Below the pieces are notes generated by a model, which ran no database searches, was not told the origin of the DNA, and saw only the letters and a list, made by a program, of their open reading frames with translations. Both the position numbers and the translations under genes were made by a program. From positions 682,001 to 746,000 of the forward strand of contig NZ_JAUFPZ010000002.1 of the NCBI RefSeq assembly GCF_030409505.1: 64,000 nt of DNA, written 5' to 3'. The DNA is from Zunongwangia endophytica. Lineage in GTDB: Bacteria > Bacteroidota > Bacteroidia > Flavobacteriales > Flavobacteriaceae. Positions within the stretch are counted from its first letter, which is position 1. Every line of letters begins with the position of its first letter. Positions 4,246-46,700 of this stretch are shown here, piece by piece.

Positions 4246-4272
4246 TGTAACAAAATAAATAGTTGTCCGTCG
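4246..4272 (+). promoter_or_regulatory. Putative ECF-sigma promoter (autoregulation)
   Basis: TGTAAC at 4246-4251 and CGTC at 4268-4271 are separated by 16 nt. This matches the -35 'AAC' / -10 'CGTC' pattern common to many ECF sigma promoters, and it lies 40 bp before the ECF sigma gene. It suggests that the operon is transcribed by its own sigma factor. This is pattern recognition only. Confidence 0.5.
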
Positions 4273-4310
4273 TAAGTATGAAGGGGTAGTTAAAACCAAC
4301 CATCAACCCA

Positions 4311-5268: not shown

Positions 5269-5278
5269 CTCCAGAAAA

Positions 5279-5809: not shown

Positions 5810-5820
5810 AACAAAAAATT

Positions 5821-6447: not shown

Positions 6448-6470
6448 TTTACTGTTTAAATTTAGTTGAA

Positions 6471-6502
6471 GAAAGAGGGAATGCACTTGCATTCCCTCTT
6501 TC
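6471..6502. terminator. Strong intrinsic terminator
   Basis: 15-bp perfect inverted repeat: GAAAGAGGGAATGCA / TGCATTCCCTCTTTC with a CT loop, followed by TATTTTA. It separates the convergent DUF4252 operon and XRE gene. Confidence 0.85.
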
Positions 6503-6510
6503 TATTTTAG

Positions 6511-7158: not shown

Positions 7159-7214
7159 AATTGCTCGATTTTGATTGATTAAAAATTAACTCGATCATGA
7201 ATAAAAATTTACCA

Positions 7215-7292
7215 GTCAAAATCACGAAACCGCTGGTCATTTTCACGACAACTTACTGTCAACCTTACGTAATCATTATGACAAATAGTTTA
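7215..7292. promoter_or_regulatory. Array of four phased GTCA-type repeats
   Basis: GTCAAAATCACGA (7215), GTCATTTTCACGA (7236), GTCAACCTTACGT (7258) and a weaker GACAAATAGTTTA (7280). The starts are 21, 22 and 22 bp apart, two helical turns, so the copies lie on one DNA face. They sit 57 bp upstream of the XRE gene start. Likely an operator; LytTR-type regulators also use repeats with this spacing. Confidence 0.5.
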
Positions 7293-7390
7293 TGCTTAAT
7301 TAGTTTACAGTTTATATTTGTTGTTTTAGCGTCGTTTTTTTTTAGTTTAAATACTGATGGTTGAATAAAAATAAAGCCATTTGTGATATC

Positions 7391-9262: not shown

Positions 9263-9430
9263 AGTTAAGAGCCGATTATTCGTCCAAAATTAGATTTGAA
9301 AGAAAGATAATGAAAAAAACATCATACTAACTCTTGAAGATAAAATAGAATTTCTTAAAATATTTTAAACGAGTTGATGCTGCTGAAGTGCTGTTTTTTA
9401 ACGTCGGATTATTCATTTTAAAGCATAAAA

Positions 9431-9460
9431 AAAATCGGCTAGAAAATACCAGCCGATTTT
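9431..9460. terminator. Intrinsic terminator
   Basis: Stem AAAATCGGCT / AGCCGATTTT with a 10-nt loop, directly after the minus-strand peptidase gene; A/T-runs flank it on both sides. Confidence 0.8.
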
Positions 9461-9478
9461 ATATAATATTGATAGTTA

Positions 9479-11308: not shown

Positions 11309-11425
11309 TTTAAAATGTTAATGAGGTTTTGAGATTAAAATTTCAGATTTCGATAAATATAAGCATTTCAGCTTATTTCTATTTTCTGAATTTAGTTGAA
11401 ACTATTGATAATTTTTTCCGAAGAA

Positions 11426-27791: not shown

Positions 27792-29320
27792 ATGCGCGAA
27801 GCCATACGTTTTACACTAATCGTAGCTGTAATAGTAGGATTAATTATTTGTACAATTTTATGGCCGGCATGGGGTTTTTCGATTCTCGGAGTGGTGCTTT
27901 TTGGTATAGGTTTGTATGATATCTTTCAGAAGGAGCATACCATTTTAAGAAACTTTCCATTATTGGGGCATATGCGTTATTTATTAGAATTAATTAGCCC
28001 TGAAATTCACCAATACTTTATAGAAAATGATACTGATGGAAAACCAATCGATCGTAATCATAGAAGTTACATTTATCAACGTGCAAAATTAGAGAAAGAA
28101 ACGCATCCTTTTGGAACACAACTTAATGTAGAAGAAGAGAACTTTAAATGGATGCAGCATAGTATTTATCCATCTAAAGTTAAGGAAGATTACCCAAGAG
28201 TAGTTATTGGAGGACCAAGTTGTAAGCAAGCATACTCCTGTTCGTTATTTAATATTTCAGCAATGAGCTATGGTTCGCTAAGCAAAAATGCTATTGAAGC
28301 GCTTAATAAAGGAGCAAAGGCAGGAAACTTTTTTCATGACACCGGGGAAGGCGGAATTTCAGATTACCATAGAAATGGCGGAGATTTGGTTTGGGAAATA
28401 GGAACAGGATATTTTGGTTGCCGTGCTGATGATGGAAATTTTGATCCTAAGCAATTTGAAGAAAAAGCCAACTGGCCAGAAGTGAAAATGATTGAAATCA
28501 AGATTTCTCAGGGAGCAAAACCCGGGCATGGTGGCGTTTTACCGGCTTCAAAAAATAATAAAGAAATTGCTGAAATTAGAGGAGTAGAACCGCATACAGA
28601 TGTATTATCTCCTCCAGGACATTCTGCTTTTAGTGACGCAGAAACTTTACTGAAATTTGTAAAACAGCTACGCGATTTATCGAATGGAAAACCAGTTGGT
28701 TTTAAATTAAGTATCGGCTCTAAAGATGAATTTCTGGAGATTTGCGAAAAAATGGTAGAAACAGGCATAAAACCAGACTTTATAACCGTAGATGGTGCTG
28801 AAGGGGAACCGGAGCCGCACCAATAGATTTCTCTAATTATGTGGGAATGCCTTGGGAGAAAGCCTTAATATTCGTGATCGATGTTCTTAACGGTTACGAT
28901 CTAAAAAAAGATATTAGTGTAATTACCGCAACTAAAATCATTACCGCTTTTGATATTTTTAAAGCTTTAAGTATCGGTGCAGATGTTTGTAACTCGGCAA
29001 GAGGTATGATGCTCGCTTTGGGTTGTATACAGGCATTAAGATGTGATTCTAATAAATGCCCAACAGGTGTCGCTACAAATAATACTAGATTAATGAATGG
29101 TTTAGTTGTCGAAGATAAATGGAAACGTGTTAAGAATTATCAAGAACAAACCTTAGATGATTTTCTAGAGTTATTTGCTGCAGCCGGGTGTACTGATCTT
29201 TCAGAATTAAACCGAAATCTAATTAATAAAAAGATCAATGATGAGATAAAACCTTACTCGGTATTTTATCCTTCAGTAGCTGCGGGATCTTATTTAAAAG
29301 AAGAACAGATCGCTCCTTAA
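27792..29320 (+). pseudogene. FMN-binding glutamate synthase family protein, frameshifted
   Basis: The intact protein would have about 509 residues. The first frame (27792-28826) gives two N-terminal transmembrane helices and most of the FMN-binding TIM barrel (ISAMSYGSLSKNAIEALNKG, HDTGEGGISDYH, GAKPGHGGVLPASKN). The frame then breaks at a run of four Gs, 28803-28806, after TVDGAEG: adding one G restores GGTGAAPIDFSNYVG and joins the second frame, which ends at 29320 with the conserved Cys cluster (LGCIQALRCDSNKCPTG). So one G is missing, or lost in sequencing. Coupled membrane helices and a glutamate-synthase-like barrel make the family related to archaeal-type GltB but of uncertain reaction. 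The universal stress gene follows 18 bp later. Confidence 0.85.
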
Positions 29321-31559: not shown

Positions 31560-32318
31560 TTATTTAAAATTTTCTTTCAGTTTCATGAATTCCTGTTCTA
31601 GGTAACTCAATTTTTGTTCGATCTCAACATTATGATTTTCAGGAATGCGTTTTAAGAAGCAATATTTTACATACCACATCTCTTTTATATCTTTAAGTTG
31701 AATTTTAATATCGTCGATATTCTTATTAGTTGCTCTCAAAGTTATATGTTCTTCAGCATGATAAAATTTTCGGAGAAGCAATTTATCGTGCACCATAATA
31801 AGAACAAAATTACCATTGGCTATTTTCGTGTAACTTTCTTGTTCTATTTTTTCACCTATAACCACATCTTTAGGACAATATCCTTTATCATTATTGGTCA
31901 TTTCTAGATTAGAAATAATATAACCTCTTAATTTTTTTTCTGAATTAATTGGTAAATGAAGTTTGGGTAAATCTTCAATAAAATGAGGTTTATCGTAATA
32001 TTGTAGATAATCAGCTTCACTTTTAGCGGTTACACAGGGAATTTTAGTGAATTTCTCCTTATGGAATGTACCATGAAAAGCAAGATCGTCTTTAAACTTC
32101 AATAATTTATTTACAGTTAATTCGCTCGTAAGCAAATCATCTATAGAAATACTAAAATGCTTAGCAATTCTAATAATAGTTTCTATCCTTGGTTCGCTTC
32201 TTTCTTCCTCGTAAGCCCCCAATGTACCACGTTTTAGATCAAAAAGTTCAGCAAAAGCCTGCTGACTTAACTTCTTCACGTTTCTTATTTTCCTAATATT
32301 TTTACCGAAATATGACAT
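31560..32318 (-). CDS. XRE/S24-like transcriptional regulator, probably protease-dead
   Basis: 252 residues. N-terminal HTH_3 (about 4-60: IRNVKKLSQQAFAELFDLKR, TLGAYEEERSEP). The C-terminal part (about 130-220) has the LexA/S24 peptidase beta-fold pattern (CPKDVVIGEKI, GNFVLIMVHDKLLLRKF, ITLRATN). The catalytic Ser site (normally GDSM) reads NLEM at 137-140, and the lysine site (normally VKR) reads LLLRKF, so the autocleavage dyad appears lost. It is divergent from the membrane-stress operon, with TTAGC/GCTAA repeats between, and is the natural candidate regulator of that operon. It probably senses a ligand, not RecA. The tail (230-252) is helical and coiled. Confidence 0.82.
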   Translation of the reverse strand: MSYFGKNIRKIRNVKKLSQQAFAELFDLKRGTLGAYEEERSEPRIETIIRIAKHFSISIDDLLTSELTVNKLLKFKDDLAFHGTFHKEKFTKIPCVTAKSEADYLQYYDKPHFIEDLPKLHLPINSEKKLRGYIISNLEMTNNDKGYCPKDVVIGEKIEQESYTKIANGNFVLIMVHDKLLLRKFYHAEEHITLRATNKNIDDIKIQLKDIKEMWYVKYCFLKRIPENHNVEIEQKLSYLEQEFMKLKENFK

Positions 32319-32323
32319 ATTTT

Positions 32324-32460
32324 GCTAAAATTATTTGCAATATTGAAATTTAGTAGTATCTTTATCTAACAATATTAGCTAATACTTTTGATAATTACTA
32401 ATTTACTTGGTGTTTTCTTGGTTTTCAAATATGATCCAAGATTTTGCTAAAGTGATTAGC
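32324..32460. promoter_or_regulatory. TTAGC/GCTAA repeat control region with putative promoter
   Basis: GCTAAAA at 32324 next to the regulator start, the palindrome ATTAGCTAAT at 32374-32383, and GCTAAAGTGATTAGC at 32446-32460 (inverted repeat GCTAA-5-TTAGC). A TACTTTTG at 32383-32390 matches TAnnTTTG and abuts the second palindrome. The layout suggests autoregulation by the divergent HTH protein and repression or activation of the operon. Confidence 0.55.
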
Positions 32461-32492
32461 GTGAATTTTATAAACTAAAACTTAATCAACCA

Positions 32493-32540
32493 ATGATCAC
32501 ATTACTAATTACTACCGTGATAGTGTTAATATTACCTTAA
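32493..32540 (+). CDS. Candidate 15-residue hydrophobic leader peptide
   Basis: MITLLITTVIVLILP, ending TAA at 32538-32540. It lies in the roughly 200-nt leader between the putative promoter and the YbjN-like gene. It is preceded by 'taatcaaccaATG', the same style of start context used by real genes in this window. The all-hydrophobic sequence suits a small membrane protein or a leader peptide that couples translation to regulation. No independent proof. Confidence 0.35.
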   Translation: MITLLITTVIVLILP

Positions 32541-32603
32541 AATACCATAGATTTTCGTATTATTATACCGTAATAGTTAACACCAATCAAAAATACTGTC
32601 TAG

Positions 32604-32999
32604 ATGAAAAATCACTTTCAGATTACCAAGAATTTTCTTTTGGAACTGAACTTCGATATCGAATTCGAAAATGAAATCGAAGGGATATTGATGATCCAAA
32701 AAGAAAGTTTTGGGATTAAAAACCTAATTCTGGGTGTTGCGCCGCCTATTTTAATTATGGAGCAGTTTTTATTCAGAATTAATAACCAGTCAGAAAAGAT
32801 CTATCGAAGTCTTTTACAAAAGAACCGCGATATCATCCATGGAGCATTCGTAGTAGACGATTCAGGAGAAAAAGTAATCTTTAGAGATACACTTCAGATC
32901 GAAAACTTAGATCTTAACGAATTGGAAGGATCATTAAACTCACTTAGTTTATTAATGAGTGAGTATTCAGACAAAATAATAGAATTTTCAAAATATTAA
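32604..32999 (+). CDS. YbjN / type III chaperone-like small protein
   Basis: 131 residues, alpha/beta, no signal peptide. The pattern FLLELNFDIEFENEIEGILMIQKES, then a central hydrophobic strand, and DTLQIENLDLNELEGSLNSL fits YbjN proteins, whose fold is that of the CesT/Tir type III secretion chaperones. Bacteroidota homologues are often labelled 'molecular chaperone Tir', but no type III system is present here. It leads the operon, 11 bp before pspA, so a chaperone or adaptor role for PspA or the ATPase is inferred. Confidence 0.65.
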   Translation: MKNHFQITKNFLLELNFDIEFENEIEGILMIQKESFGIKNLILGVAPPILIMEQFLFRINNQSEKIYRSLLQKNRDIIHGAFVVDDSGEKVIFRDTLQIENLDLNELEGSLNSLSLLMSEYSDKIIEFSKY

Positions 33000-33010
33000 A
33001 CCTCAGCGTT

Positions 33011-33724
33011 ATGAACATTTTTAAGCGATTATTTAAAATAGGAGAAGCCGAAGCAAATTCAGCTATCGATAATATGGAAGATCCCATTAAACTTACCGAA
33101 CAGGGAATTCGAGATCTTAAGCAGGATTTAGATAAAAATCTGGAAGCTTTAGCTCAGGTAAAAGCCTTAGCAATTAGAGCGAAAAACGACCAAGATGAAT
33201 ATCTGGATAAAAAAGAAGATTATCACAATAAAGCTATTCTTATTCTGAAGAAAGGCGAACGAGGAGAAATGGATAAAACAGAGTCTGATCGTCTGGCAAG
33301 AGAAGCTTTAGTGAAAAAGGAGGAAGCTCAAAAACACGTAGAACGCTCTGAAGAAGAAGCTAAAAAGTTCAACGAAAATGTAGCGCAGTTAGAACGAAAT
33401 ATTCAAACCATTAAATCGAATATTAGTAACTGGGAAAACGAACTTAAAACGCTTAAAGCACGTGTAAAAGTGAGTAATGCAACAAAGAGCCTTAACAAGC
33501 AGATGGCAGAAATAGATAGTAGTAGCACAGTCTCTATGTTAGAACGTATGAAAGAGAAAGTTGCGCAAGAGGAAGCTTTGGCAGAAGCTTATGGAGACAT
33601 CGCAGGTGCTTCTAAATCTATTGATGATGAGTTAGAAAAAGCGGCCAGCTCTACAGAAGCTAAAGCCGAAGATGATCTTAGTAAATTGAAAGATCAACTG
33701 GGTTTAAATGAAGATAAAAAATAA
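33011..33724 (+). CDS. pspA: PspA/IM30 (Vipp1) family protein
   Basis: 237 residues. N-terminal amphipathic helix (MNIFKRLFKIGEAEANSAID), then the long antiparallel coiled-coil hairpin, with IDNMEDPIKLTEQGIRDLKQDL near the start. These are the marks of PspA/IM30, bacterial relatives of ESCRT-III that polymerise on damaged membranes. It sits between the YbjN-like gene and an OB-fold membrane protein, with 11- and 5-bp gaps, so it is tightly co-transcribed. No PspF, PspB or PspC nearby, so the control differs from the enterobacterial phage-shock system. Confidence 0.92.
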   Translation: MNIFKRLFKIGEAEANSAIDNMEDPIKLTEQGIRDLKQDLDKNLEALAQVKALAIRAKNDQDEYLDKKEDYHNKAILILKKGERGEMDKTESDRLAREALVKKEEAQKHVERSEEEAKKFNENVAQLERNIQTIKSNISNWENELKTLKARVKVSNATKSLNKQMAEIDSSSTVSMLERMKEKVAQEEALAEAYGDIAGASKSIDDELEKAASSTEAKAEDDLSKLKDQLGLNEDKK

Positions 33725-33729
33725 CGAAA

Positions 33730-34434
33730 TTGACCAACTTAACCGACATATTATTTTCTGAGGTAAATATTACCTTAAGTATTCTTTGTATTCTTCTAAT
33801 AGTGTATTGGGTATTAACCATGGTTAGCGGAATCGAATTTGAATACGATATGGATATAGATATCGATGCCGATTTGGATGTCGATATTTCTACCGAAGGT
33901 TCGAATATGGAATTTCAGGATGTATCGAATGCCGAGCTGAATAAAGAAAGCGTAGTTGGTAAGCGTATCCAGCCTTTAAAATGGTGGCAAATCTTATTGA
34001 TTTACTTCAACTTCGTTGGTTTGCCTTTCATGTTTACATTTACCTGTTTTGTTTTTATTTGGTGGTTTACCACAGCATTAACTACAACACTCACCTTTAC
34101 CTATGATAATTTTATAGGTTTTGCCATAATGATAGCTGGTTTTTTTACCTCGCTGTTTGTCACGAAGATCTTCACGACGCCTTTTAAAGGCTTTTTTAAG
34201 AATCTAAACAAGGACGGTGATAAAGCTATTGATTATGTGGGTAGACAGGGAGTATTGCTTTCTACCATAGCAGGAGATAGAATGGGAAATGCCGAGATTT
34301 ATGTGAATGGAGATTCACACTCTATTTATGTAAAATCACTGGACGGGAATCAACTTAATTATCAGGATAAAATTTTAATCATCAAACAATCGGCTGATAA
34401 AAATTACTTCTTAGTACAATCTTATAACGACTAA
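33730..34434 (+). CDS. YqiJ-like OB-fold membrane protein
   Basis: 234 residues from a TTG codon (no nearer ATG). An N-terminal helix (ITLSILCILLIVYWVLTMVS), an acidic stretch (DMDIDIDADLDVDIS), two further helices (WQILLIYFNFVGLPFMFTFTCF, NFIGFAIMIAGFFTSLFV), then an OB-fold at about 180-234 (GRQGVLLSTIAGDRMGNAEI, NYQDKILIIKQ). This is the build of E. coli YqiJ, an NfeD-like partner usually encoded before the flotillin YqiK. It would anchor and shape flotillin microdomains in the inner membrane. 5 bp from pspA, 16 bp from the flotillin gene. Confidence 0.75.
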   Translation: MTNLTDILFSEVNITLSILCILLIVYWVLTMVSGIEFEYDMDIDIDADLDVDISTEGSNMEFQDVSNAELNKESVVGKRIQPLKWWQILLIYFNFVGLPFMFTFTCFVFIWWFTTALTTTLTFTYDNFIGFAIMIAGFFTSLFVTKIFTTPFKGFFKNLNKDGDKAIDYVGRQGVLLSTIAGDRMGNAEIYVNGDSHSIYVKSLDGNQLNYQDKILIIKQSADKNYFLVQSYND

Positions 34435-34450
34435 TCTTACTTATTAAAAA

Positions 34451-36529
34451 ATGAATCAAATCTTACCAATTATCGGAATTGGATTAGGGGGAATACTGTT
34501 CCTAATCGTCATTTACTTCGCAATAATTGCGATGTTTTACAAAAAAGTACCGCAAGGTCGTGCGATCGTTCGTACTGGTTTTGGCGGAACCAAAGTAGCC
34601 ACAGACAAGGGACTTTATGTAGTTCCCGTTTTCCATAAAGTGGAAGTAATGGATATTTCTGTAAAGAAAATCCAAATTGAAAGAATGGAGCACGAAGGTT
34701 TAATTTGCCGCGACAATATGCGTGCAGATATTAAAGTAGCCTTTTTTGTTCGGGTGAATAATGATATCTCTTTTATTAAACGAGTAGCGCAAACCATTGG
34801 GGTGGATCGTGCATCGAGAATCGAAACTTTAGAAGACCTTTTTGAAGCTAAATTTTCTGAAGCCTTAAAAACTGTGGGTAAAAAGTTCGATTTTATCGAA
34901 TTATATGAAGCACGTCGCGAATTTAGAGACGAAATTGTAAATATTATTGGGACAGACCTCAATGGATATACTTTAGAAGATTGTGCGATCGACTTTCTAG
35001 AACAAACGCCAATTACACATCTTAAGCCAGACAATATTCTGGATGCTGAAGGGATTAAAAAGATTACTGAACTTACCGCAGTTCAGAATATGAAAGCGAA
35101 TCTTATTAAGCGAGATGAGCAAAAAACTATAAGAAAACAAGATGTTGAAGCTAGAGAAGCTATTCTTGAATTAGATAAACAATTAGCTGAAAAAGAAGAA
35201 GCACAAAAACGTGAAATCGCAAATATTAAAGCGAGAGAACACGCAGAAATTAGCAAAGTTTCTGAAGAAGAACGCCTAAAATCTGAATCAGCTAGAATTG
35301 CTACGGAAGAAAAAGTAAAAGTAGCTGAAGAAAATATGAACCGTCAAATCATCGTGGCGGCGAAAAACAAAGAACGAACAGATGCGGTAGAAAGCGAACG
35401 AGTTGAAAAAGATCGTATGCTTGAAGCTACTGAGAGAGAACGTATCGTTACCCTTGCTCAAATCGAGAAGGAAAAAGTGCTTGAAGTAGAGAAGAAAAAC
35501 ATCCAGGATGTTATTCGAGATCGCGTAATGTTAGAAAAAGGTGTGGTAGAAGAGCAGGAAAATATGAAAGATATCCAGGCTTTTAAAACTGCAGATCGTG
35601 ATAAAAAAGTAAAGGTTACTATTGCTGAAGCGAGTGCTCAGGAATCGCTAATTAAAACTATTAAAGCCGCAGAAGCGCAAAAAGAAGCTGCTAAGCAAAA
35701 AGCAGAAGAAATTAATATTGAAGCGCAAGCACATAAAGAAGCAAGCGAAAAAGAAGCTGAAGCTAGAAAAACAATAGCAGAAGCTAAAGCAAAAGAAGAA
35801 GCTACATTAGGATTGTCTGAAGCTGAAGTAATGCATGCCAAAGCAGATGCTAACGAAAGACAAGGACTTATGGAAGCGCTTATCATCGAGAAAAAAGCCA
35901 AAGCAGAAGCTGCCGGAATGGAAGCCAAATCTGAAGCGAGTAGAAAAGAAGGGAAAGCTGCTGCAGATGTGATTCGAGACAAAGCTCTTGCCGACGCTGC
36001 GGGTATCGAAGAAAAAGCTGCTGCAATGAAGAAACTTGACGGTGTTGGTAAAGAACACGAAGAATTCAAGTTAAAATTAGATAAAGAATTGCAAGTAGAT
36101 TTGGCACATATCAATATTCAAAAAGATATTGCCGATGCACAAGCACATGTAATTAGTGATGCGCTTAAGGCGGCTAAAATCGATATTGTTGGTGGAGAAA
36201 CCATGTTCTTCGATCAGATTATTGGTCAGATTACCAGAGGTAAAGGATTCGATAGATTAGTACAGAACAGTTCTAATATTCAGGATTTAAAGGATTCAAT
36301 ATTAGGAAGCGATGATATTAAAGGAAATTTACTAACTAAAGTGCGTGAGTTTTCAGAGAAATACGGAATTTCTTCCGAAGATATCAAAAACCTTACGATC
36401 GCGAATTTGATTATGGAACTAAAAGGTCGCTCAAACGACCAAAATGAGCAAACTATGTTGGGCAATTTATTCAATCTTGCTAAAGGTTTAGGATTGTCAG
36501 ATCAGCGCGTTTCAACCTTAAAGGTTTAG
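34451..36529 (+). CDS. Flotillin (SPFH/Band 7) protein, YqiK-like
   Basis: 692 residues. One N-terminal membrane helix (IGIGLGGILFLIVIYFAIIAMFY), SPFH/Band 7 domain (about 30-200: GRAIVRTGFGGTKVATDKGLYVVPV), and a very long Ala/Glu/Lys coiled coil (about 220-560) typical of flotillins. The C-terminal 130 residues carry a second domain. It forms large oligomeric rings in functional membrane microdomains. With the YqiJ-like gene 16 bp upstream, it reproduces the yqiJ-yqiK pair, here placed after pspA. A long antisense open frame inside is only a shadow of the coiled-coil composition. Confidence 0.9.
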   Translation: MNQILPIIGIGLGGILFLIVIYFAIIAMFYKKVPQGRAIVRTGFGGTKVATDKGLYVVPVFHKVEVMDISVKKIQIERMEHEGLICRDNMRADIKVAFFVRVNNDISFIKRVAQTIGVDRASRIETLEDLFEAKFSEALKTVGKKFDFIELYEARREFRDEIVNIIGTDLNGYTLEDCAIDFLEQTPITHLKPDNILDAEGIKKITELTAVQNMKANLIKRDEQKTIRKQDVEAREAILELDKQLAEKEEAQKREIANIKAREHAEISKVSEEERLKSESARIATEEKVKVAEENMNRQIIVAAKNKERTDAVESERVEKDRMLEATERERIVTLAQIEKEKVLEVEKKNIQDVIRDRVMLEKGVVEEQENMKDIQAFKTADRDKKVKVTIAEASAQESLIKTIKAAEAQKEAAKQKAEEINIEAQAHKEASEKEAEARKTIAEAKAKEEATLGLSEAEVMHAKADANERQGLMEALIIEKKAKAEAAGMEAKSEASRKEGKAAADVIRDKALADAAGIEEKAAAMKKLDGVGKEHEEFKLKLDKELQVDLAHINIQKDIADAQAHVISDALKAAKIDIVGGETMFFDQIIGQITRGKGFDRLVQNSSNIQDLKDSILGSDDIKGNLLTKVREFSEKYGISSEDIKNLTIANLIMELKGRSNDQNEQTMLGNLFNLAKGLGLSDQRVSTLKV

Positions 36530-36550
36530 TCAATTTAAAAACAATTAGGA

Positions 36551-36583
36551 CGTCACCCTGAACTTGTTTCAGGGTCTCATCCT
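36551..36583. repeat. REP-like intergenic repeat unit
   Basis: The 145-bp gap before the ATPase gene contains CGTCACCCTGAACTTGTTTC at 36551-36570, with the inverted repeat CCCTGAA / TTCAGGG (36556-36562, 36568-36574), and then GGTCTCATCC. I recognise this kind of sequence as a dispersed repeat in marine Flavobacteriaceae genomes. It lies inside the operon, so it may affect transcript processing. Confidence 0.5.
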
Positions 36584-36674
36584 GTTGTTAATACAAAAGT
36601 TTCGGATCTATGCCCTGAATAGGAATAGAATCGAAATGACTAGAGAATGAATCCAACCCTTACCACAAAACCTA

Positions 36675-39600
36675 ATGAATACTAACGAAGAAAATTCTGT
36701 ACAAAAAGATGCTTTAGATGGTGGCACTTACGAGATTATCCGTAAGCGACTCCATACTCATAAATCCGATTTACAGGAACGTCTTAATACTTTAAATGAA
36801 GCCCGAAAAACGGTTTTTGGTTCGCTCGAAACACAGTTAATTGCCAATAATCGAATTAGTACTGAGAATAATTGCGTTGCCAGAGATATTATTTCACTAG
36901 GAAATACCTGTATTTTTGGTTACAATGTACATTTTGGATTACGAACAGAAATCACACTTTCTGATGTTTTTAGTGTTTATGAATTTCAGGATAATAATTT
37001 TGAAGCAGTTTCTTTAACTATTTTAGACGATGAAACCTTTAAAACAGATTTTGCGAATCTTTATAAGTATTATAGAAATACAATTTTCACCAAGTTTGCC
37101 AGAGTAGGGAATTACCTGCATATGGTTTTTCAGCTAAGTGATAGCGTAACCGATATTAAGACCTTTAAATGGCTTATTAGTGAGGATACCTTAACCTATA
37201 TCGATAATCGTAGCGAGCACGAATTTAAGTATCCAAAACAACATCAATTTAACTGGCAGGAGGCTACGCGCGATATGCAGCGATATGGGGAACATTCACA
37301 CGTAGCGATTTTAGATAAAGTTTTTGTAGAAACCATTGGTGGCGATCTAACTATTAAAATTGAAGATAATACAGACGACGGAAAAGGAATTTATTCTGAA
37401 CCTGTAGACTATAAAGATCAAACATTAGATGATGGCCAGATTCGTTTTGCTGATTTAGGGAATTTGATTGCGTTAGAAATTAAGCCGTTTCAGGAAGAAG
37501 CACGCTATTTTGTGTACAATCATAAAATACAGGAAGTACAAAAAATTGATTCTATAAAAGAAACTGCAGTATTATTACCGGACGATCAGGGAATTATTTT
37601 TCCGAATGGTTATTATTTGCAAACCGGAGAATTTCATTTATTTTCTAACGAAGTTCAGGAGTTAAAATATCAGGGAACGATGAGTTCTTCAAATGGGGAA
37701 GATTTTCTGTATATTTTTTATTCACCAAAAAAAGGAACGTATTTGTTGATGGATTATAACATGATCGATCAGCAAATAAATACGCCAATTGTTTGTGGCG
37801 GGTTTACTATTTTACCCAATGGCGAACTATGCTATTTTAAAGCCGACGACGAGCAAACCAAACATCATATGATTCAGATTTGGCAAACCCCTTATCTGGA
37901 AGGTGATATTATGCCGTCTGAACATCAGGATTCGATGTTGTATAAAATTGGCAATAAAGATATTGTAAAAGCAATGGCCGAGGCTAATGAGCTGCTTACC
38001 TTGCTTAGCAAAGAAGATAATTATGATGGTTTATACGCCGATATTGCTAAATCATCTAAAAATATTCTAGATGCTTTCTATTGGTTAAACGAGAAAGAAA
38101 CGGCTGTTTTAAGCGAGCCGTTAAAAGAAATTAATACCGCTGCAAATGCGGCTATCGATGAATTTCAGAAAGTAATTCAGTTAAAGAAAAATGCTGAAAA
38201 ACAGACCACGGAAATTCAGCAAAAAGCGCAGGAACTTTTCAGTAAAATAAAAAGTACTTCGTTTAAAAACATCGATGAATTTGTCGAATTACTCTCACAA
38301 CTTAGAGCATTACGAGGCGAGGTTATTGGTTTGTATGAAATTCGATATGTCGACGAAGAATTTATTAAATCGCTGGAAGCTGAAATTGCCGAGCAAACGA
38401 CAAAAATTTCAAGACGCTGCGTAGAATTTTTGCTGAATGATAAAGCTTTAGCGCCGTATCATGATAAGGTTGAAGAAAAGAAGCAACAACTAGAGAAAAT
38501 TAGTAAAGTAGTTGAAGCCAAAAAGCTAGAAGAAGCAGTCAATCAAATTGCACTCGATTTAGAAATGCTAATCGATATTGTATCGAATTTAGAGATTGAA
38601 GATACCTCGCATTCCACTAAAATTATCGATAATATTTCGCTGATTTTTGCAACTATCAATCAGCTTAAAGCTGCAATTAAAAACAAGAAAAAATCACTTG
38701 GAAGCAAGGAAGCTCAAGCCGATTTTGCTGCGCAGTTAAAACTTATCGATCAGAGTATTATAAACTATTTGGATATTGCTTCTACACCAGAAAAATGTGA
38801 CGAATTTCAAACAAAAGTCAGTATTCAGCTTGAAGAATTAGAAGGCAAATTTGCCGATTTTGAAGAATTTATTGCTGAAATTCTAGAGAAACGAGAAGAA
38901 GTTTATAATGCTTTTGAGAGTAAGAAAAGTGCGATTACCGAAAAACGAAATAAAAAAGCAATCGCGCTGCAAACAGCTTCCGATAGAATTTTAAAAAGTG
39001 TTGGTAAAAAAGCCGAAAGTTTAAAATCGGTTTCTGAAATCAACGGGTATTACGCTTCAGATCTAATGGTCAATAAGCTCCGCGATATTGTGGAGCAGTT
39101 GCGCGAACTGGACGATAGCGGTAATGCAGAAGAAATTGAAACTTCCCTAAAAACAAGTAGAGAAGATGCGTTACGAAAGCTAAAAGATAAGCAGGATCTT
39201 TACGAAGATGGCGAGAATATTTTAAAACTTGGAAATCATAAATTTGGAGTTAATCGTCAAGATCTGGATTTAAGTATCGTTTTTAAAGAGGGGACGCTAT
39301 TTTATCATTTAAGCGGAACCGATTTTTATCAGGAATTAAAAAATGAAATTCTAAATAATAGTCGAGAATATTGGGATCAGGAATTTATTTCTGAAAACGA
39401 TTCGGTGTATCGAGCATCATTTTTAGCTTTCAAAATTTACAAAAATCAGCATTTTGAAGATCTTTCTGTATTGAATGAAGAAGACTTGCTGAAGTTAATT
39501 CAAGAAGAAAGCAGTAGTAATTATTCCGAAGGATACATAAAAGGCGTTCATGATCTGGATGCTGCTAAAATTCTACACATTTTAGTTCAGAAACATCAAG

Positions 39601-41543
39601 ATTTAGGGATTTTAAAATACAGATCTGAAATTCGTGCTTTTGCCAGATATTTTTGGAATCAATTAGATACCGATGCTAAAAAAGTTTACAATAATTCCAT
39701 TAAAGCGTCAGGCCAGGTTTTAAAATATTTCCCGAATACAAAAGAATATGATTTTTTGATTCAGGAATTAGAGCAGGTAATAAGCGAATTTGGGCAAAAT
39801 ACAGGATTATTTTCTGCGGAAGTAAGCCTAGAAACTGCACAATATTTATTTGAAGAATTACAAAGTGACGATAAGTTTGTAATTAGTGGGTTTGCAAAAA
39901 AACTTGCAGATGATTTTCAGCAAATGCTGAAGAAAGAGAAAGCCGAATCTCAGTTTAAAAATAGCGTTGAAAGTTTACATTCTTATTCAGCAAAAATAAG
40001 ATTGGTAAAACAATGGCTTCAGGCATTTGCAAAAGCAAAATCGGTAGAAAATCAGACAAATTATATCGATGAGGCGGTATGTTGTGTTTTATTTCCGCAG
40101 CAAAGTCCAGAAGTGAATCATATCGATTCTTCTGTAGTAATTTCAGGATTAAAAGGAGATCATAAGAATATCGAAAATGGGCAATTTCAGTTCAATTTTC
40201 ATGAATTCACGCAAAAACTTCAATTGTATTTTAATTTTAGTGTTCCCGCATTTCAAGCTTTCAGAAAAGCAAGACATCAGGTAACTGAAGATCTGAAAGA
40301 ACAATTGAAATTAGACGAATTTAAGCCGAGAGTTTTAACGTCTTTTGTTCGGAATAAATTAATCGATCAGGTATATTTTCCGCTTTTTGGAGAAAATTTA
40401 GCGAAACAATTAGGAAGTGTAGGGGAGAACCGCCGAACCGATCGTATGGGAATGCTGTTATTAGTATCGCCACCGGGTTATGGTAAAACCACTTTGATGG
40501 AATATATCGCTAACCGCTTAGGATTGGTTTTTATGAAGATAAACGGCCCTGCAATTGGTCACGATATTACTTCGGTAGATCCAGAAGCTGCAACCAACTC
40601 AGCTTCCAGAGAAGAATTAAAAAAGCTGAATCTTGCTTTTGAAATGGGGAATAATGTGATGTTGTATTTAGACGATATTCAGCATTGTAACCCTGAATTT
40701 TTACAGAAGTTTATTTCTTTGGCCGATGGAACCCGAAAAATCGAGGGAATTTTCAACGGAAAACCGAAAACCTATGATTTACGCGGAAAGAAATTTTGCG
40801 TGATTATGGCTGGGAATCCGTATACCGAAAGCGGAGAGAAATTCAGGATTCCCGATATGCTTTCTAACCGTGCCGATATTTATAATCTGGGAGATATTAT
40901 TGGGGACACAGAGACTTTATTTAAATTGAGTTTACTAGAAAACTCACTCACCTCTAATCCTGTGTTGCATCAGCTAAGTTCGCGTAATTTCGAAGATGTT
41001 TATACTTTGATTAATCGTGTAGAAAATAATTCGGATGTCGGAGAATTAAAAGGAAACCATACACAACAGGAAATTAGCGATTATAAATCGGTTTTAGAAA
41101 AAGTGCTTAGTATTCGGAATATCGTTTTAAAAGTCAACGCCAATTATATTAAATCGGCAGGAATGGAAGATGAATATCGTACGGAACCTGCGTTTAAGCT
41201 TCAGGGATCGTATCGAGATATGAATAAATTGGTCTCGAAAGTAGTCCCGATTATGAATGAAAAAGAACTAAATAGTTTATTATTATCTCATTATGAAAAC
41301 GAATCGCAAACGCTAACAGCCGCTGCTGAAGCAAATTTGCTGAAATTTAAAGAGCTTCGAGGAAGTATTTCTGAAGAAGAACAAAAACGCTGGACTGCGA
41401 TTAAAGCAACTTTTCTGAAGAACAATAAGCTGAAAGGTTTTGGAAACAAAAATGAAATGGCACAAGTGCTATCGCAAATGATGGCGTTTAGCGAAAATCT
41501 TGAAGGTATTAGAGATGTGCTGCAACGCGGACTCGAGAAGTAA
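36675..41543 (+). CDS. Giant coiled-coil AAA+ ATPase ('DNA repair ATPase'-type)
   Basis: 1622 residues. The N-terminal 430 residues are a beta-rich region of unknown type. Coiled-coil segments lie at about 480-850 (many Glu/Lys/Leu heptads). The AAA+ module is near the C-terminus: Walker A VSPPGYGKTT (about 1264-1273), Walker B MLYLDDIQHC (about 1328-1337), and a sensor/arginine stretch AGNPYTESGEKFRIPD and LSNRADIY (about 1375-1400), so it is active-site complete. RefSeq-style names call such proteins 'DNA repair ATPase', but nothing here supports DNA repair. It closes the pspA-yqiJ-flotillin series, which suggests remodelling of membrane-bound PspA or flotillin assemblies, as Vps4 does for ESCRT-III. 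That is inference. Confidence 0.8.
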   Translation: MNTNEENSVQKDALDGGTYEIIRKRLHTHKSDLQERLNTLNEARKTVFGSLETQLIANNRISTENNCVARDIISLGNTCIFGYNVHFGLRTEITLSDVFSVYEFQDNNFEAVSLTILDDETFKTDFANLYKYYRNTIFTKFARVGNYLHMVFQLSDSVTDIKTFKWLISEDTLTYIDNRSEHEFKYPKQHQFNWQEATRDMQRYGEHSHVAILDKVFVETIGGDLTIKIEDNTDDGKGIYSEPVDYKDQTLDDGQIRFADLGNLIALEIKPFQEEARYFVYNHKIQEVQKIDSIKETAVLLPDDQGIIFPNGYYLQTGEFHLFSNEVQELKYQGTMSSSNGEDFLYIFYSPKKGTYLLMDYNMIDQQINTPIVCGGFTILPNGELCYFKADDEQTKHHMIQIWQTPYLEGDIMPSEHQDSMLYKIGNKDIVKAMAEANELLTLLSKEDNYDGLYADIAKSSKNILDAFYWLNEKETAVLSEPLKEINTAANAAIDEFQKVIQLKKNAEKQTTEIQQKAQELFSKIKSTSFKNIDEFVELLSQLRALRGEVIGLYEIRYVDEEFIKSLEAEIAEQTTKISRRCVEFLLNDKALAPYHDKVEEKKQQLEKISKVVEAKKLEEAVNQIALDLEMLIDIVSNLEIEDTSHSTKIIDNISLIFATINQLKAAIKNKKKSLGSKEAQADFAAQLKLIDQSIINYLDIASTPEKCDEFQTKVSIQLEELEGKFADFEEFIAEILEKREEVYNAFESKKSAITEKRNKKAIALQTASDRILKSVGKKAESLKSVSEINGYYASDLMVNKLRDIVEQLRELDDSGNAEEIETSLKTSREDALRKLKDKQDLYEDGENILKLGNHKFGVNRQDLDLSIVFKEGTLFYHLSGTDFYQELKNEILNNSREYWDQEFISENDSVYRASFLAFKIYKNQHFEDLSVLNEEDLLKLIQEESSSNYSEGYIKGVHDLDAAKILHILVQKHQDLGILKYRSEIRAFARYFWNQLDTDAKKVYNNSIKASGQVLKYFPNTKEYDFLIQELEQVISEFGQNTGLFSAEVSLETAQYLFEELQSDDKFVISGFAKKLADDFQQMLKKEKAESQFKNSVESLHSYSAKIRLVKQWLQAFAKAKSVENQTNYIDEAVCCVLFPQQSPEVNHIDSSVVISGLKGDHKNIENGQFQFNFHEFTQKLQLYFNFSVPAFQAFRKARHQVTEDLKEQLKLDEFKPRVLTSFVRNKLIDQVYFPLFGENLAKQLGSVGENRRTDRMGMLLLVSPPGYGKTTLMEYIANRLGLVFMKINGPAIGHDITSVDPEAATNSASREELKKLNLAFEMGNNVMLYLDDIQHCNPEFLQKFISLADGTRKIEGIFNGKPKTYDLRGKKFCVIMAGNPYTESGEKFRIPDMLSNRADIYNLGDIIGDTETLFKLSLLENSLTSNPVLHQLSSRNFEDVYTLINRVENNSDVGELKGNHTQQEISDYKSVLEKVLSIRNIVLKVNANYIKSAGMEDEYRTEPAFKLQGSYRDMNKLVSKVVPIMNEKELNSLLLSHYENESQTLTAAAEANLLKFKELRGSISEEEQKRWTAIKATFLKNNKLKGFGNKNEMAQVLSQMMAFSENLEGIRDVLQRGLEK

Positions 41544-41653
41544 ATTGCTCCGGATCAAGCCCGCAGAAAATTTTAGCAGAACACTTTTAAACTTTAAAAA
41601 TTTATCTGCAAGACAAGTCTCGGGTATTTCCCCACTTTTAATAAAAACTTTTT

Positions 41654-41686
41654 AAAGCTGCTCTTAAGGGCAGCTTTGATTTTTTA
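41654..41686 (+). terminator. Terminator after the ATPase gene
   Basis: AAAGCTGC / GCAGCTTT stem (8 bp, 41654-41661 and 41670-41677) with T-run. It ends the membrane-stress unit. The 259-bp gap before the next sigma gene holds nothing else I can name. Confidence 0.7.
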
Positions 41687-41802: not shown

Positions 41803-42381
41803 GTGGTTTCAAAACAAATAGATCAAGAAAATGATGTTCAGCTTTTAGCACTTATAAAAAAGAACAACCAATTAGCTTTTAATAGGTTATATAATAAATA
41901 TTGGAAAAGATTATTTATATATACCGCTAATATATTAAATGATAAAGAATTGGCTCAAGATGTTTTACATGATGTTTTTTCTACATTATGGATTAAAAAA
42001 GATGAGTTAGAAATTGAGTCTTTAGAGAAATATTTATTTGTAGCAGCAAAAAATAAATCGATATCTCAATTTCGAAAAGTGAAATTTACAGAATTAGATC
42101 TTTCTATAATAGAAAAGCTTTCTCTAAAACCCGAAATTGAAACTAATCTTGATTTTATAGATTTAAAAACGGTTCTAAACGAAGTTACCCAAAGTTTGCC
42201 TGCTCGTTGTAGAGAAATATTTTATATGAGTAAGTATAACTATTATTCAAATCAAGAAATCGCTCAGCATTTTAATATCTCACAAAGAACAGTAGAGAAT
42301 CAACTTTATTTGGCATTAAAACATATTAAACATTCTCTAAAACAACTAATACTTCTTCTTTTAATATTTTCTACCCGTTAA
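41803..42381 (+). CDS. FecI-like ECF sigma factor
   Basis: 192 residues from GTG 41803. Region 2 (NNQLAFNRLYNKYWKRLFIY, AQDVLHDVFSTLWIKKDE) and region 4 (LPARCREIFYMSKYNYYSNQEIAQHFNIS, SQRTVENQLYLAL). Region 4's HTH (SNQEIAQHFNISQRTVENQL) is typical of sigma factors that control SusCD loci in Bacteroidota. The FecR gene follows at 101 bp, then SusC with an STN domain, giving a trans-envelope signalling set. Confidence 0.92.
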   Translation: MVSKQIDQENDVQLLALIKKNNQLAFNRLYNKYWKRLFIYTANILNDKELAQDVLHDVFSTLWIKKDELEIESLEKYLFVAAKNKSISQFRKVKFTELDLSIIEKLSLKPEIETNLDFIDLKTVLNEVTQSLPARCREIFYMSKYNYYSNQEIAQHFNISQRTVENQLYLALKHIKHSLKQLILLLLIFSTR

Positions 42382-42482
42382 GTTAGGCACAGGTTTCTTA
42401 ATCATTAATGCTTTGTTAAGAGTGCTTTTTTTGCAAATTTCTCATGTGAGTATTTTGGTTTCTATGCGTCCTTCTATTGTAA

Positions 42483-43619
42483 ATGCAACTCATGACGAAA
42501 AAACAGTTTTTAGCATTAGCCGATAAATTTGAACAAGGATTATGTTCAGAAAAGGAAGAGGTATTATTATATAAGTTTTGTGAACAAGCTCAGTTTAAAA
42601 GTATTGTAACAAGTTGGGATCTCTCGGAGGAATCAAAAATTAGAATTCAACTGCTCAAAAAAATTCAGCAGACCATTAAAATAGAGCAACAGAATCGGCA
42701 TAGGTTCAGGTGGAAACATATTAGAAACTTAGCTGGAATTTTAGTGTTTTTAGGTGTTTGTGGTTACATTTATTTTCAACAAAGTAATTCTATTTCACAA
42801 GCTATACCTGAGGATGCAATTACTCTTCAGCTAGAAGATGGTTCTCTTCAAATCATCAACGAAAAAGATAGCAGTTCAATTAGTAATAAAGCAGGAAAAG
42901 TGATTGGGCGGCATGAAGGTACACGTATGTTGTATATGGATACAAGTAAAACCACAAGAATAGTTTATAATACGCTAAGAGTTCCTTACGGTAAAAAATT
43001 TGAAATAGAACTATCAGATGGTACTGTAGCCTATCTTAATTCAGGTACTTCTATTAAATATCCTTCTAGATTTCTAGCAAATACAAATAGAGAGATTTAC
43101 ATAACGGGAGAAGCTTTTCTTGCTGTAGCTAAAGATTCGTCACGACCATTTATTGTAAATACAGACCAATTAGAAGTGAAAGTGTTAGGAACTAAATTCA
43201 ATGTTTTTGCTTATCCAGAGGATGAAGTTTCAGCAGTAACTTTAGTAGAAGGGGCAGTTAGTCTTCAAACTGCTAAAAATACTAGTAAAAATAAAACGGT
43301 AGCTTATTTAAAGCCTGGTTTTAGAGGAAGTTTATCTAAAACTGAAAATGAAATTACAACAGAACAAGTTAATACGACTATGTATACTTCTTGGAGAGAT
43401 GGGAAATTAGTTTTTCGGAATATGATCTTCAAGAATATTATAAAAAAATTAGAGCGGCATTATAACGTGAAAATCAATAATAAAAATGAAGAATTAGCTG
43501 GAAAAAAATTCAATATGAATTTTGGAAATGAATCTTTAGAAGGAGTTTTAGATGGCCTAAAAGCTAACTACGGAATACAATATGCTAAAGATTATTCGGG
43601 AAATATCACAATACAATAA
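42483..43619 (+). CDS. FecR-family anti-sigma/sigma regulator
   Basis: 378 residues (a second ATG four codons in is equally possible). Cytoplasmic N-terminal domain (about 1-75), one membrane helix (about 80-98, HIRNLAGILVFLGVCGYIYFQ), and a periplasmic FecR domain (about 165-270: VPYGKKFEIELSDGTVAYLNSGTSIKYPS), ending in a DUF4974 part (GNESLEGVLDGLKANYGIQY) that mimics an STN domain. It would pass the substrate-loaded state of the SusC receptor to the FecI-like sigma factor. Confidence 0.92.
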   Translation: MQLMTKKQFLALADKFEQGLCSEKEEVLLYKFCEQAQFKSIVTSWDLSEESKIRIQLLKKIQQTIKIEQQNRHRFRWKHIRNLAGILVFLGVCGYIYFQQSNSISQAIPEDAITLQLEDGSLQIINEKDSSSISNKAGKVIGRHEGTRMLYMDTSKTTRIVYNTLRVPYGKKFEIELSDGTVAYLNSGTSIKYPSRFLANTNREIYITGEAFLAVAKDSSRPFIVNTDQLEVKVLGTKFNVFAYPEDEVSAVTLVEGAVSLQTAKNTSKNKTVAYLKPGFRGSLSKTENEITTEQVNTTMYTSWRDGKLVFRNMIFKNIIKKLERHYNVKINNKNEELAGKKFNMNFGNESLEGVLDGLKANYGIQYAKDYSGNITIQ

Positions 43620-43677
43620 CTAAAACCAAAAAGCCAATGACATAGTTATACCAGTTAAGAAATTATCAGTTAAAAAA

Positions 43678-43705
43678 ATCGGAAAATGCGGTAACATTTC
43701 CCGAT
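43678..43705 (+). promoter_or_regulatory. Hairpin between fecR and susC
   Basis: ATCGGAAAATG / CATTTCCCGAT, an 11-bp stem with one mismatch and a 6-nt loop, 53 bp before the SusC start. No T-run follows. It may protect the abundant susCD transcript or act as an attenuator. Confidence 0.4.
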
Positions 43706-43757
43706 TAGTTCAAAATGATTATTTAAAAATAAACATATCAAATAACAATATAAAATT

Positions 43758-46700
43758 ATGAAAAAACTTCCTAATTCAGGTAAGGAGGATATCACTTTAT
43801 TTAAACTTGACTTGAAAATGAAATTAAGTATAGTGTTAATGTTTGTCACTTTTTTTACCCTTAGTGCCAATGAAAGCTATTCTCAGAAAACAAAAATCAA
43901 CCTTAATTATAACAATATTTCTTTTGGAAAACTTATCGATGAGATTGAGAGTACTACAGAATTTCAGTTTGTGTATAAGCTTGAAGATGTAGACCTATCG
44001 CAAATAATTTCTGTAGATGCTAAAAATAAAAAGATAGCAGAAATCTTAGAGAATATTCTTGCAGAAACGAAAACCAGTTTTAATATAGATGACCGTCAAG
44101 TTTATTTAATTAAACGAGAAAATATTGGAACGAATCAAAGTGAACAATCAGGAAATTTAAATTCAGACTTTCAAGAAGTTATTCAAGGAATTGTTGTCGA
44201 TACCCATGGAGTGCCACTTGCAGGAGCTAGTATCAGAGAACAAAATACTGAGAATGGTGTATTTTCAGATTTTGATGGAAAATTCGCTATTAACATCAGT
44301 AATGCTAATATGAAGTTAGTTGTTTCTTATGTAGGTTTTAAATCTAAAGAAATAACAGTTGGTGACTCCTCCAACATAGAAGTTATTTTGGAAGAAAGCA
44401 CAGAGGGTTTAGATGAAATTCTCATTGTAGGATATGGTTCTCAGAAAAAAAGTGACGTGACAGGATCAGTTTCTTCTTTACCAAAAGAAAGACTAGAAAT
44501 GGTTCCTAATGTAAATATTGCGCAAGCCATACAAGGAGCCGTTCCAGGAATGATGATTCAAAATACTAGTGCAGGAGCAGCTCCTAACCAAAGTTTAATG
44601 ATTAGAGGGCGTAACTCAATTAAAGCGAGTAATCAGCCATTAATTGTTTTGGATGGTATTCCTTATAATGGAAATATTAATGATATTAATCCTAATGATG
44701 TAGCCTCTATAGATGTGTTAAAAGATGCATCTGCAAGTGCCATTTATGGATCTAGAGGAGCAAATGGAGTTATATTAGTTACCACAAAAAGAGGTAAGAG
44801 TGGTGAATTGAGCATAGCATATGATGGATATTATTCTATTCAGGATTATATTAATCTTCCTGATGTTATGGATGGCGCTGAATTTTATGATTTTAAAATG
44901 ACCAGAGCTCCTGAAATGATGACAGCTGAAGAACGCGAAATTTATGAATCTGGTAATTGGGAAAATTGGTACGATTTACTTTTAAGACAAGGAAATGCAC
45001 AACAACATAATATCTCTGTTTCTGGAGGAAGTGAAAAAACTACTTTTTATGTAGCCGGTAGTCTTTTAGATGTTAAAGGACTATCCATAAATGATAAATT
45101 TGTACGTTTTAATAATAGAATTAATATAGATACCGATATTAAAGATTGGTTAACTATAGGTTCTAAGAGTCAATTTTCTTATAGTGACCAAAGTGGAGTG
45201 GTGCCTGGATGGGATCAAGCTTATAGCATGAATCCTTTAACTAAAGCTTTTGATGAAGATGGAGCTATTACCATTTATCCTTGGGAGGGAAACACAACTT
45301 ATGCCAATCCTCTTCAGCAAACATTGTATGATAATACAGATAAGGCGTATCAAGTTATAACAAATAATTATGTAGATATTGATATTCCATTTATAAAGGG
45401 CCTAAATTATAGATTGAATACTGGTTTTAATTTTAGCTTTTCAGATTATTCAGAATACAGAGGAAGAGATACTAAAACTGGTTTAGATGCAAGAGGTGAG
45501 TCTATTACTAAAGATTCAAAGTCTAGCAAATCGGTTATAGAAAACATTTTAAACTATAATAGGAGCTTTGGTGTACATAAAATAAAAGCTACAGCTTTGT
45601 ATAGTTTTGAAGAGAATGAAACTAATTTCAAGGGATTAGAAGCCAGTGGCTTTCCTAATGATTTTAGAGGTTCCTATGCAGCTTCACAGGCAGAATCCAT
45701 AATTCCTTCTTTAGGAAAAACCAATACAAAGTTAATCTCTCAAATGCTACGCGTAAATTATTCTTACGATAGCCGTTATCTCCTAACATTAACTGGAAGA
45801 AGAGATGGCTACTCAGGCTTTGGAGCTAATACAAAATGGGGACTTTTCCCTTCTGTTGCTTTAGGTTGGAATATTAATAGAGAGAATTTCTTTGCTGCGA
45901 ATACTATTTTTAATTCCTTAAAATTAAGGGTTTCTTATGGAAAAAATGGAAATCAAGCAGTTGGTGCTTATGAAACATTATCCAGACTTGAAGAGTACAA
46001 TATGGTCGATAATAAAGTTACACAGCCTGGCTATAGACCTAGCGTTTTGGGACAAGATGATTTAGGTTGGGAGTCTTCTTCAACATTAAACGTAGGATTA
46101 GATTTTGGACTTTTGAAGAATAGACTTCAAGGTACAATTAACCTTTACAAAACCCGTACAAAAGATTTATTATTAGATCGAACTATATCTCCTGTACATG
46201 GTATAGGTTCTACTGTGCAAAATATTGGAGAAACAGAGAACCAGGGGATTGAATTTACTTTAAATAGTACTAATATTTCTACCAATAATTTTTCTTGGTC
46301 TACTTCTGCAAATTTTTCATTTATAAAGAATGAAATTGTTTCTCTTTATGGTATTTCTGATGAAAATGGACAACCAGTTAATGATTTAGCTAATGCATGG
46401 TTTGTAGGAAAACCCATCAATGTAATCTATGACCATAAGCGTATAGGAACTTGGCAACTGAATGAAGCTGAAGAAGCCGCAGAATGGGGGTCTCAACCCG
46501 GTTTTGTGAAATTTGAAGATGTAAATAATGATGGTGTTTTAGATGATAAAGACCGACAAATTTTAGGAAATAAAGACCCTGATTTTTTATGGGGATTGAG
46601 TAATATTTTTACCTATAAAGATTTTGGCCTATCGGTTTTTATTCATGGTGTTCACGGTTTATATAAAGCAAATCCTTTAATGACAGACGACACTACTGGA

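Follow-up and report, generated by a model that had tools for sequence, protein, structure and literature searches.

A two-module PspA and flotillin-AAA+ ATPase locus with a divergent LexA-fold regulator and predicted operators in Zunongwangia endophytica

The 64,000-nucleotide stretch of Zunongwangia endophytica DNA analysed here (the window) lies at 682001-746000 on contig C2 of a 4.38 Mb genome and carries a regulator gene that diverges from five genes encoding a CesT/Tir-type chaperone, PspA, a YqiJ/YuaF membrane protein, a flotillin and a giant AAA+ ATPase. A first-pass annotation, made from the letters alone, had described five genes with a divergent regulator, and all six open reading frames (ORFs) were confirmed at the claimed span. 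This kind of operon is already published. What is new is its division into two modules, its predicted repressor of LexA fold without a catalytic dyad, and an operator pattern also present in nine loci beyond those used to find it. The features of the locus are as follows.

31560-32318, minus strand: regulator gene (REG), with an HTH_3 N-terminus, a LexA/CI-type C-terminal domain without the Ser-Lys dyad and a C-terminal helix
32322-32340, no strand: predicted operator O1, TTGCTAAAATTATTTGCAA, whose right arm contains the -33 TTTG
32334-32364, plus strand: predicted Bacteroidota-type promoter TTTG-N19-TATCTTTA, directed towards the CesT gene, with a pattern conserved across gaps
32363-32381, no strand: predicted operator O2, TATCTAACAATATTAGCTA, which spans the end of the -7 element and the bases just downstream
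32444-32462, no strand: predicted operator O3, TTGCTAAAGTGATTAGCGT, in the CesT leader
32604-32999, plus strand: CesT/Tir-type chaperone (CesT_Tir_1, PF22550, 187 bits)
33011-33724, plus strand: PspA/IM30 of the ESCRT-III superfamily (PF04012, 150 bits)
33730-34434, plus strand: YqiJ/YuaF (NfeD2-type) membrane protein with a TTG start, recognized by hhalign and a PDB profile match
34451-36529, plus strand: flotillin of the SPFH2/YqiK type (Band_7, 50.6 bits)
36675-41543, plus strand: DUF3686-DUF7902-AAA+ ATPase of 1622 amino acids (aa), by Pfam scan, with intact ATPase motifs
41652-41679, plus strand: terminator-like hairpin (12 pairs) with a T run, 3' of the ATPase, the longest such hairpin of the region

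The first gene of the run encodes a CesT_Tir_1 protein. It had been called YbjN-like, and this label was dropped because the YbjN score (21.2 bits) is under the Pfam cut-off of 22, whereas PF22550 scores 187 bits against a cut-off of 27. The first four genes are tightly spaced, as had been noted, with gaps of 11 bp (CesT-PspA), 5 bp (PspA-YqiJ) and 16 bp (YqiJ-flotillin); the flotillin-ATPase gap is 145 bp. The PspA of the locus is the sole PspA match in the genome. The PspA profile scored E. coli PspA at 42.0 bits and YjfJ at 29.5 bits, so the YjfJ-family label given in PMC11237479 is unconfirmed here. The YqiJ-like protein, the fourth gene product counted from the regulator, had no match in the Pfam scan. 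It aligned with E. coli YqiJ at an hhalign probability of 95.4, and YuaF (2k14) was the sole PDB match of its profile (E 0.029). This NfeD2-type gene lies directly 5' of the flotillin gene, whose family profile scores E. coli YqiK at 191.6 bits. A single-sequence search found no PDB relative of the flotillin, and Rfam gave no match at the gathering score between 30800 and 42400.

Two evenly drawn genome samples, 296 from the phylum and 247 from the class, were used to follow these genes. In the phylum draw, DUF3686 was found in 8 genomes and a PspA match in 125 (117 over the cut-off). The gene-neighbourhood search proposed in the first-pass annotation found all six genes together in every one of the eight DUF3686 genomes (the window and L039-L045), in the order regulator-CesT-PspA-YqiJ-flotillin-ATPase with the regulator divergent. 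The class draw held DUF3686 in 8 genomes and a PspA match in 34 (29 over the cut-off). Here pspA adjoins the DUF3686 gene in five of the eight (G000, G012, G166, G369, G529). Judged from PspA positions only, the other three (G320, G392, G499) have only a weaker PspA match, on a different contig or at a distance of over 2 Mb. When both draws were pooled, pspA adjoined DUF3686 in 10 of 13 distinct genomes, with the ATPase of G369 cut by a contig end. The six-gene unit is therefore rare but coherent.

A wider sample came from a scan with the ATPase alignment in which each species was represented by one genome; it gave 568 confirmed relatives, of which the best 80 were kept. Being found through the ATPase, this sample is non-random and leans towards Bacteroidota, and its metagenome-assembled genomes may miss genes. 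The closest named ATPase relative among the best 80 of 568 is from Zunongwangia pacifica (93% identity). Seven of the 80 loci, with less than 4 kb upstream of the ATPase, were excluded. All six genes are present in 45 of the remaining 73 loci, and their order is identical in 45 of 45. YqiJ, flotillin and ATPase only are found in 24 loci, a group that includes Planctomycetes and Saprospiraceae; two loci have PspA-YqiJ-flotillin-ATPase, one (L157) has regulator-YqiJ-flotillin-ATPase, and one has the ATPase alone. The last, L127, is the sole locus without YqiJ or flotillin nearby. The ATPase thus has YqiJ and flotillin beside it in 72 of 73 loci and PspA in 47.

The ATPase also occurs in 12 plasmid records, of which five were examined and three of these are annotated. 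Plasmids of Pseudomonas (pQBR103), Streptomyces and Deinococcus carry a hypothetical gene, an SPFH/flotillin gene and the ATPase in the same order, with a second hypothetical gene at the flotillin position of the Deinococcus plasmid (from annotation and gene order only). Profile matches identify the pQBR103 genes as YqiJ, flotillin and ATPase. Immediately 5' of them, at 1-12226 of the pQBR103 locus (L162), lies a PspA-rhomboid-DUF2491-DUF350-DUF1190-glutathionylspermidine synthase cluster, which indicates that a different PspA module can also join the YqiJ-flotillin-ATPase genes.

Two modules are joined at this locus, and each is also found standalone. Module A consists of the regulator, CesT and PspA, and module B of YqiJ, flotillin and the ATPase. 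At seven loci (L171-L177), all in genomes that lack a DUF3686 match, regulator-CesT-PspA stands with neither flotillin nor ATPase in the stretch retrieved, and module B occurs without module A in 24 of the 73 loci. Two further loci, L178 and L179, hold all six genes, with the L178 ATPase cut by a contig end. In the class draw, a divergent regulator match lies within 1.4 kb of 10 of the 11 PspA genes scoring above 110 bits. Across 53 complete loci, the pairwise distances of the six proteins correlate at 0.75-0.93 for all pairs, with permutation maxima of at most 0.28, and shared descent contributes to this correlation.

The standalone occurrence of both modules fits a reading in which two useful, independent modules share a promoter and serve the same stress response without mutual contact. 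The larger flotillin-ATPase gap points the same way, as do extra ORFs between the modules, such as the YbjQ gene in an Aquimarina locus. We consider this reading rather unlikely. Gene order is fixed in the complete loci, and the divergence of the six proteins is strongly correlated, though shared descent alone could yield that. A contact between the modules also has a precedent, since B. subtilis has an SPFH protein that connects PspA with the membrane (PMC8581546). That system resembles the present one in pairing PspA with an SPFH protein, and differs in that CesT, YqiJ and a giant AAA+ protein are not named in the part of the paper that concerns the pair. In the Aquimarina loci (L086, L089, L090, L091, L099, L111) a 104-aa ORF lies between PspA and YqiJ; the L089 copy, the sole copy scanned, is YbjQ_1 (131 bits).

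The last gene encodes an ATPase with the Pfam architecture DUF3686, DUF7902 and one AAA domain (1261-1385). Walker A GKT, Walker B DD and the sensor 1 Asn are invariant in 88 of 88 ATPases, as are a candidate arginine finger and a candidate sensor 2 Arg. The structure model covers residues 905-1622. In the VIA alignment of the modelled AAA domain, NorQ and CbbQ scored 16.8 and 16.4, against 12.6 for PAN and p97, so that by VIA the fold aligns best with MoxR-type proteins; by Foldseek alone, RuvB comes first. No VWA domain was matched among nine window proteins scanned, the rest of the genome not being searched.

The first-pass annotation had suggested that this ATPase disassembles PspA or flotillin polymers as Vps4 does for ESCRT-III. 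This suggestion is supported in part; its PspA part, with PspA in 47 of 73 loci against YqiJ and flotillin in 72, is the less likely one. A giant ATPase that takes apart PspA polymers in the Vps4 manner, with flotillin as a membrane platform, can be defended on several grounds: the gene run includes PspA, a relative of ESCRT-III, the distances of PspA correlate with those of the ATPase at 0.84, Vps4 (4d80) takes ninth place by Foldseek (E 2.1e-5), and the relevant part of PMC11237479 suggests a general ESCRT analogy for AAA+ associations. The phyletic pattern makes it quite unlikely. PspA is absent beside the ATPase in 26 of the 73 loci, and when 24 of those 26 genomes (all except L140 and L157) were searched, a PspA match was found elsewhere in 16 (15 over the cut-off), as that reading would allow, but none in the other 8. 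Conversely, the seven standalone regulator-CesT-PspA loci have no adjacent ATPase. The AAA domain is placed by VIA nearer MoxR than classical AAA proteins, and Vps4 is not among the 50 VIA rows listed, though it may rank below them. The Pfam scan found no MIT domain in the ATPase up to E 0.1, although a divergent MIT-like domain could escape it. Remodelling of an SPFH cage is accordingly favoured but unproven as the role of the ATPase. The phyletic pattern shifts the question of the DUF3686 ATPase substrate from PspA to the flotillin/YqiJ pair.

In public records the protein is named "DNA repair ATPase". Its action as a DNA-repair factor, or that of the locus as a phage-defence system, would be in line with this name, with the LexA fold of the regulator and with the first Foldseek rank of RuvB. 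Knock-out of the flotillin-family gene SO1377 in Shewanella raised the mutation rate and peroxide sensitivity, and its authors ascribe the DNA damage to free iron (PMC1468410, in the part that treats this mutant). YqiJ and flotillin genes precede the ATPase in all but one of the 73 loci, and no neighbouring genes that would support DNA repair were seen, so the name gains no support from the immediate gene neighbourhood. PADLOC matched the regulator only, chiefly its helix-turn-helix (HTH) part. Both a repair and a defence role are thus highly improbable.

The regulator had been regarded as one-off. All 45 loci that have CesT and PspA next to the ATPase also have a divergent relative of it, which contradicts that view, and relatives in 185 of the 247 class-draw genomes place it in a large family. 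Pfam assigns HTH_3 and Peptidase_S24 to the regulator, and its C-terminal fold is of the LexA type. Among 22 regulators, the Lys position of the catalytic dyad is Arg in 20 and the Ser position is Glu in 17, the latter position being read from the alignment by eye, as HMMER puts the loop a few residues off. One Ser (L041) pairs with Arg and one Lys (L129) pairs with Glu, so no regulator of the 22 has both. Because the Ser-Lys dyad is missing, the regulator is probably incapable of self-cleavage.

Inspection of 53 regulator-CesT gaps by eye revealed a palindrome, CTAA-N5-TT[A/T]G. In L086 and L110, and in similar ORFs including L111, O1 is apparently read as codons MQIKLAK at the apparent regulator N-terminus, so that mechanical start calls in these ORFs were too far upstream. 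Before these over-long starts were corrected, 94 sites were counted in 46 of the 53 gaps, where shuffled sequences averaged 1.1 (at most 6 in 500 shuffles). With corrected starts, for which the counts were repeated without new shuffles, there are 106 sites in 49 of the 53 gaps, and no other spacing between 0 and 10 yields more than 8 sites. Nine loci that had not been used for pattern discovery contain 14 sites, with at least one in 9 of 9 loci; before correction, 13 sites were found in nine, against a shuffle mean of 0.13 (maximum 2). Seven of these nine have no ATPase beside PspA and hence lay outside the 53-gap set, and L178 and L179 could overlap named records. Control regions rarely contain a site: 1 of 10 upstream of CesT without a regulator and 2 of 25 upstream of YqiJ in loci with module B only. 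L157, which has the regulator without CesT or PspA, has one site.

The exceptions are related to the recognition helix of the regulator. At all four gaps without a canonical site (L125, L132, L145, L039), the recognition helix of the regulator reads Ala-Arg-[PA]-Ser-Val, a grouping made after the exceptions were seen. Canonical sites are present in 2 of 6 loci of this group and in 56 of 56 others (Fisher p 2.7e-5), whereas a palindrome with a GCTCA/TGAGC arm is present in 4 of 6 and in 3 of 56 others (Fisher p 8.6e-4). In the L145 and L039 gaps, where the helix is Ala-Arg-Pro-Ser-Val, GCTCA-N5-TGAGC replaces CTAA-N5-TTWG, possibly a natural switch of specificity. The co-variation of site and recognition helix suggests that the regulator reads these palindromes. 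A wider regulon was considered and set aside, as the 17-base core of O2 has no second genome match at fewer than two mismatches. A single near-perfect operator-like palindrome at C2:677892, about 4 kb before the window, is a possible second target.

Bacteroidota promoters follow the consensus TTTG-N18-21-TAnnTTT. This pattern is directed towards CesT in 47 of the 53 gaps, and its TTTG forms the right operator arm in 44 of 53. Before start correction it was found in 37 of 53 gaps, against a shuffle mean of 3.6 (maximum 9, 200 shuffles). In control regions it occurs in 0 of 45 flotillin-ATPase gaps and in 2 of 45 stretches of 270 bp 3' of the ATPase. A generic sigma-70 promoter scan was uninformative (47 found, 37.8 expected). 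The position of O1 over the -33 element and of O2 from the end of the -7 element fits repression, which we infer rather than activation. A single transcript is the simplest reading of the gene run, with the flotillin-ATPase junction as its weakest point.

On balance, we lean slightly towards an envelope-stress operon of two modules that is controlled by its own local repressor and in which an SPFH cage is worked on by a MoxR-like AAA+ protein. The LexA/CI-shaped repressor would bind tandem palindromes over the -33 element and start site of the operon promoter and turn the operon off. Because O1 adjoins the start codon of the regulator itself, binding there would probably also limit its own expression. 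Repression would be lifted by some signal, for which the membrane state of CesT/PspA is a candidate. CesT may keep PspA soluble or deliver it, and PspA would then coat the stressed membrane. YqiJ and flotillin would form the SPFH cage, and a hexamer of the MoxR-like ATPase may act on this cage or its clients, like FtsH with HflKC, minus the protease.

Several observations weigh against this explanation. The loci share ancestry, for which the shuffles, permutations and Fisher test make no correction. No regulator match was found at 10 CesT-PspA loci (L061-L069, L180), nor by phmmer at any of 33 PspA loci (L046-L078), so not every PspA gene or CesT-PspA pair comes with the regulator. All seven other regulators scanned, long and short, have the HTH and no S24 match, so the sensing domain is either unconserved or too diverged. 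The relaxed palindrome (at most one mismatch) shows no enrichment across the genome (115 matches; reversed control, 132), and a second exact operator match lies at C2:924780. The promoter pattern occurs in just 3 of the 9 further loci, and in the window alone it is not above chance (15 found, 18.4 expected). The flotillin-ATPase gap exceeds 50 bp in all 45 loci (median 160 bp), so the ATPase could be transcribed separately, though none of these gaps holds such a promoter. In the Foldseek ranking, Lon as well as RuvB comes before NorQ.

A broader hypothesis, which is tentative and less probable than the local explanation above, is that Bacteroidota may have their own psp-type circuit. A catalytically dead LexA-fold repressor would control CesT-PspA through a palindrome of roughly 19 bp that different lineages have retained, and some lineages would have wired in the SPFH-cage/AAA+ machine. 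In this circuit the repressor would be removed from DNA by CesT or PspA itself, acting as the direct sensor, in a counterpart of PspA-PspF control built from unrelated parts. PspF is a sigma54 AAA+ activator inhibited by PspA. E. coli pspF-pspABC and the present locus are alike in that a divergent regulator gene adjoins the PspA operon; here the regulator has an HTH/LexA fold and the operon contains no PspB or PspC. LexA and lambda CI likewise combine an HTH with a LexA-type C-terminal fold and act at tandem palindromes over a promoter, whereas the present regulator lacks the Ser-Lys dyad and gives no sign of a wider regulon.

The components of module B also have known counterparts. YqiJ and flotillin are of the type found in SPFH2-NfeD2 pairs (E. 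coli yqiJ-yqiK, B. subtilis yuaF-yuaG). In E. coli K-12, yqiJK has no adjacent ATPase gene, whereas the giant AAA+ gene accompanies the pair here in 72 of 73 loci, all found through the ATPase. FtsH is a classical AAA protease. HflKC-FtsH and prohibitin-FtsH each join an SPFH assembly to an AAA+ machine, and the part of PMC2636767 (2009) on this subject describes NfeD-SPFH pairs and SPFH-FtsH contacts. The DUF3686 ATPase differs from FtsH in having no protease domain in the Pfam scan.

The closest published description is in PMC11237479 (mSystems 2024), where the relevant section reports CesT/Tir-PspA with YqiJ/YuaF, band-7/flotillin and a large AAA+ ATPase (example ANH61663.1), including standalone and abbreviated variants, with a predicted role in sub-membrane assembly. 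The same five protein families in one operon and the same variants are found here, with a similar predicted role; that section on the operon group names no divergent regulator, operator or promoter. As set out in the corresponding part of PMC9239133 (2022), band-7 genes adjoin pspA in Bacteroidota and HTH genes tend to lie near pspA in some phyla; operons are defined there by same orientation, which leaves out divergent regulators. No paper on DUF3686 was found in the open-licence PMC literature. Among the open-licence PMC papers listed, there was no functional study of the PspA/CesT/flotillin/YqiJ set and no study of an inducer of PspA/flotillin systems in Bacteroidota. The predicted operators and the dyad-less LexA-fold repressor would offer a direct handle on the inducing stress through the region 32319-32603.

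Two observations were made in the neighbourhood of the locus. After the hairpin, at 41803-47033, an extracytoplasmic function (ECF) sigma factor gene (by Pfam) lies with anti-sigma-like and TonB-dependent receptor genes (by eye), apparently a separate system. On the other side, adjacent ORFs at 27792-28826 and 28841-29320 look like one gene, presumably glutamate-synthase-like (27792-29320), broken by a frame change near 28800-28840 that reflects either a pseudogene or a sequence error.

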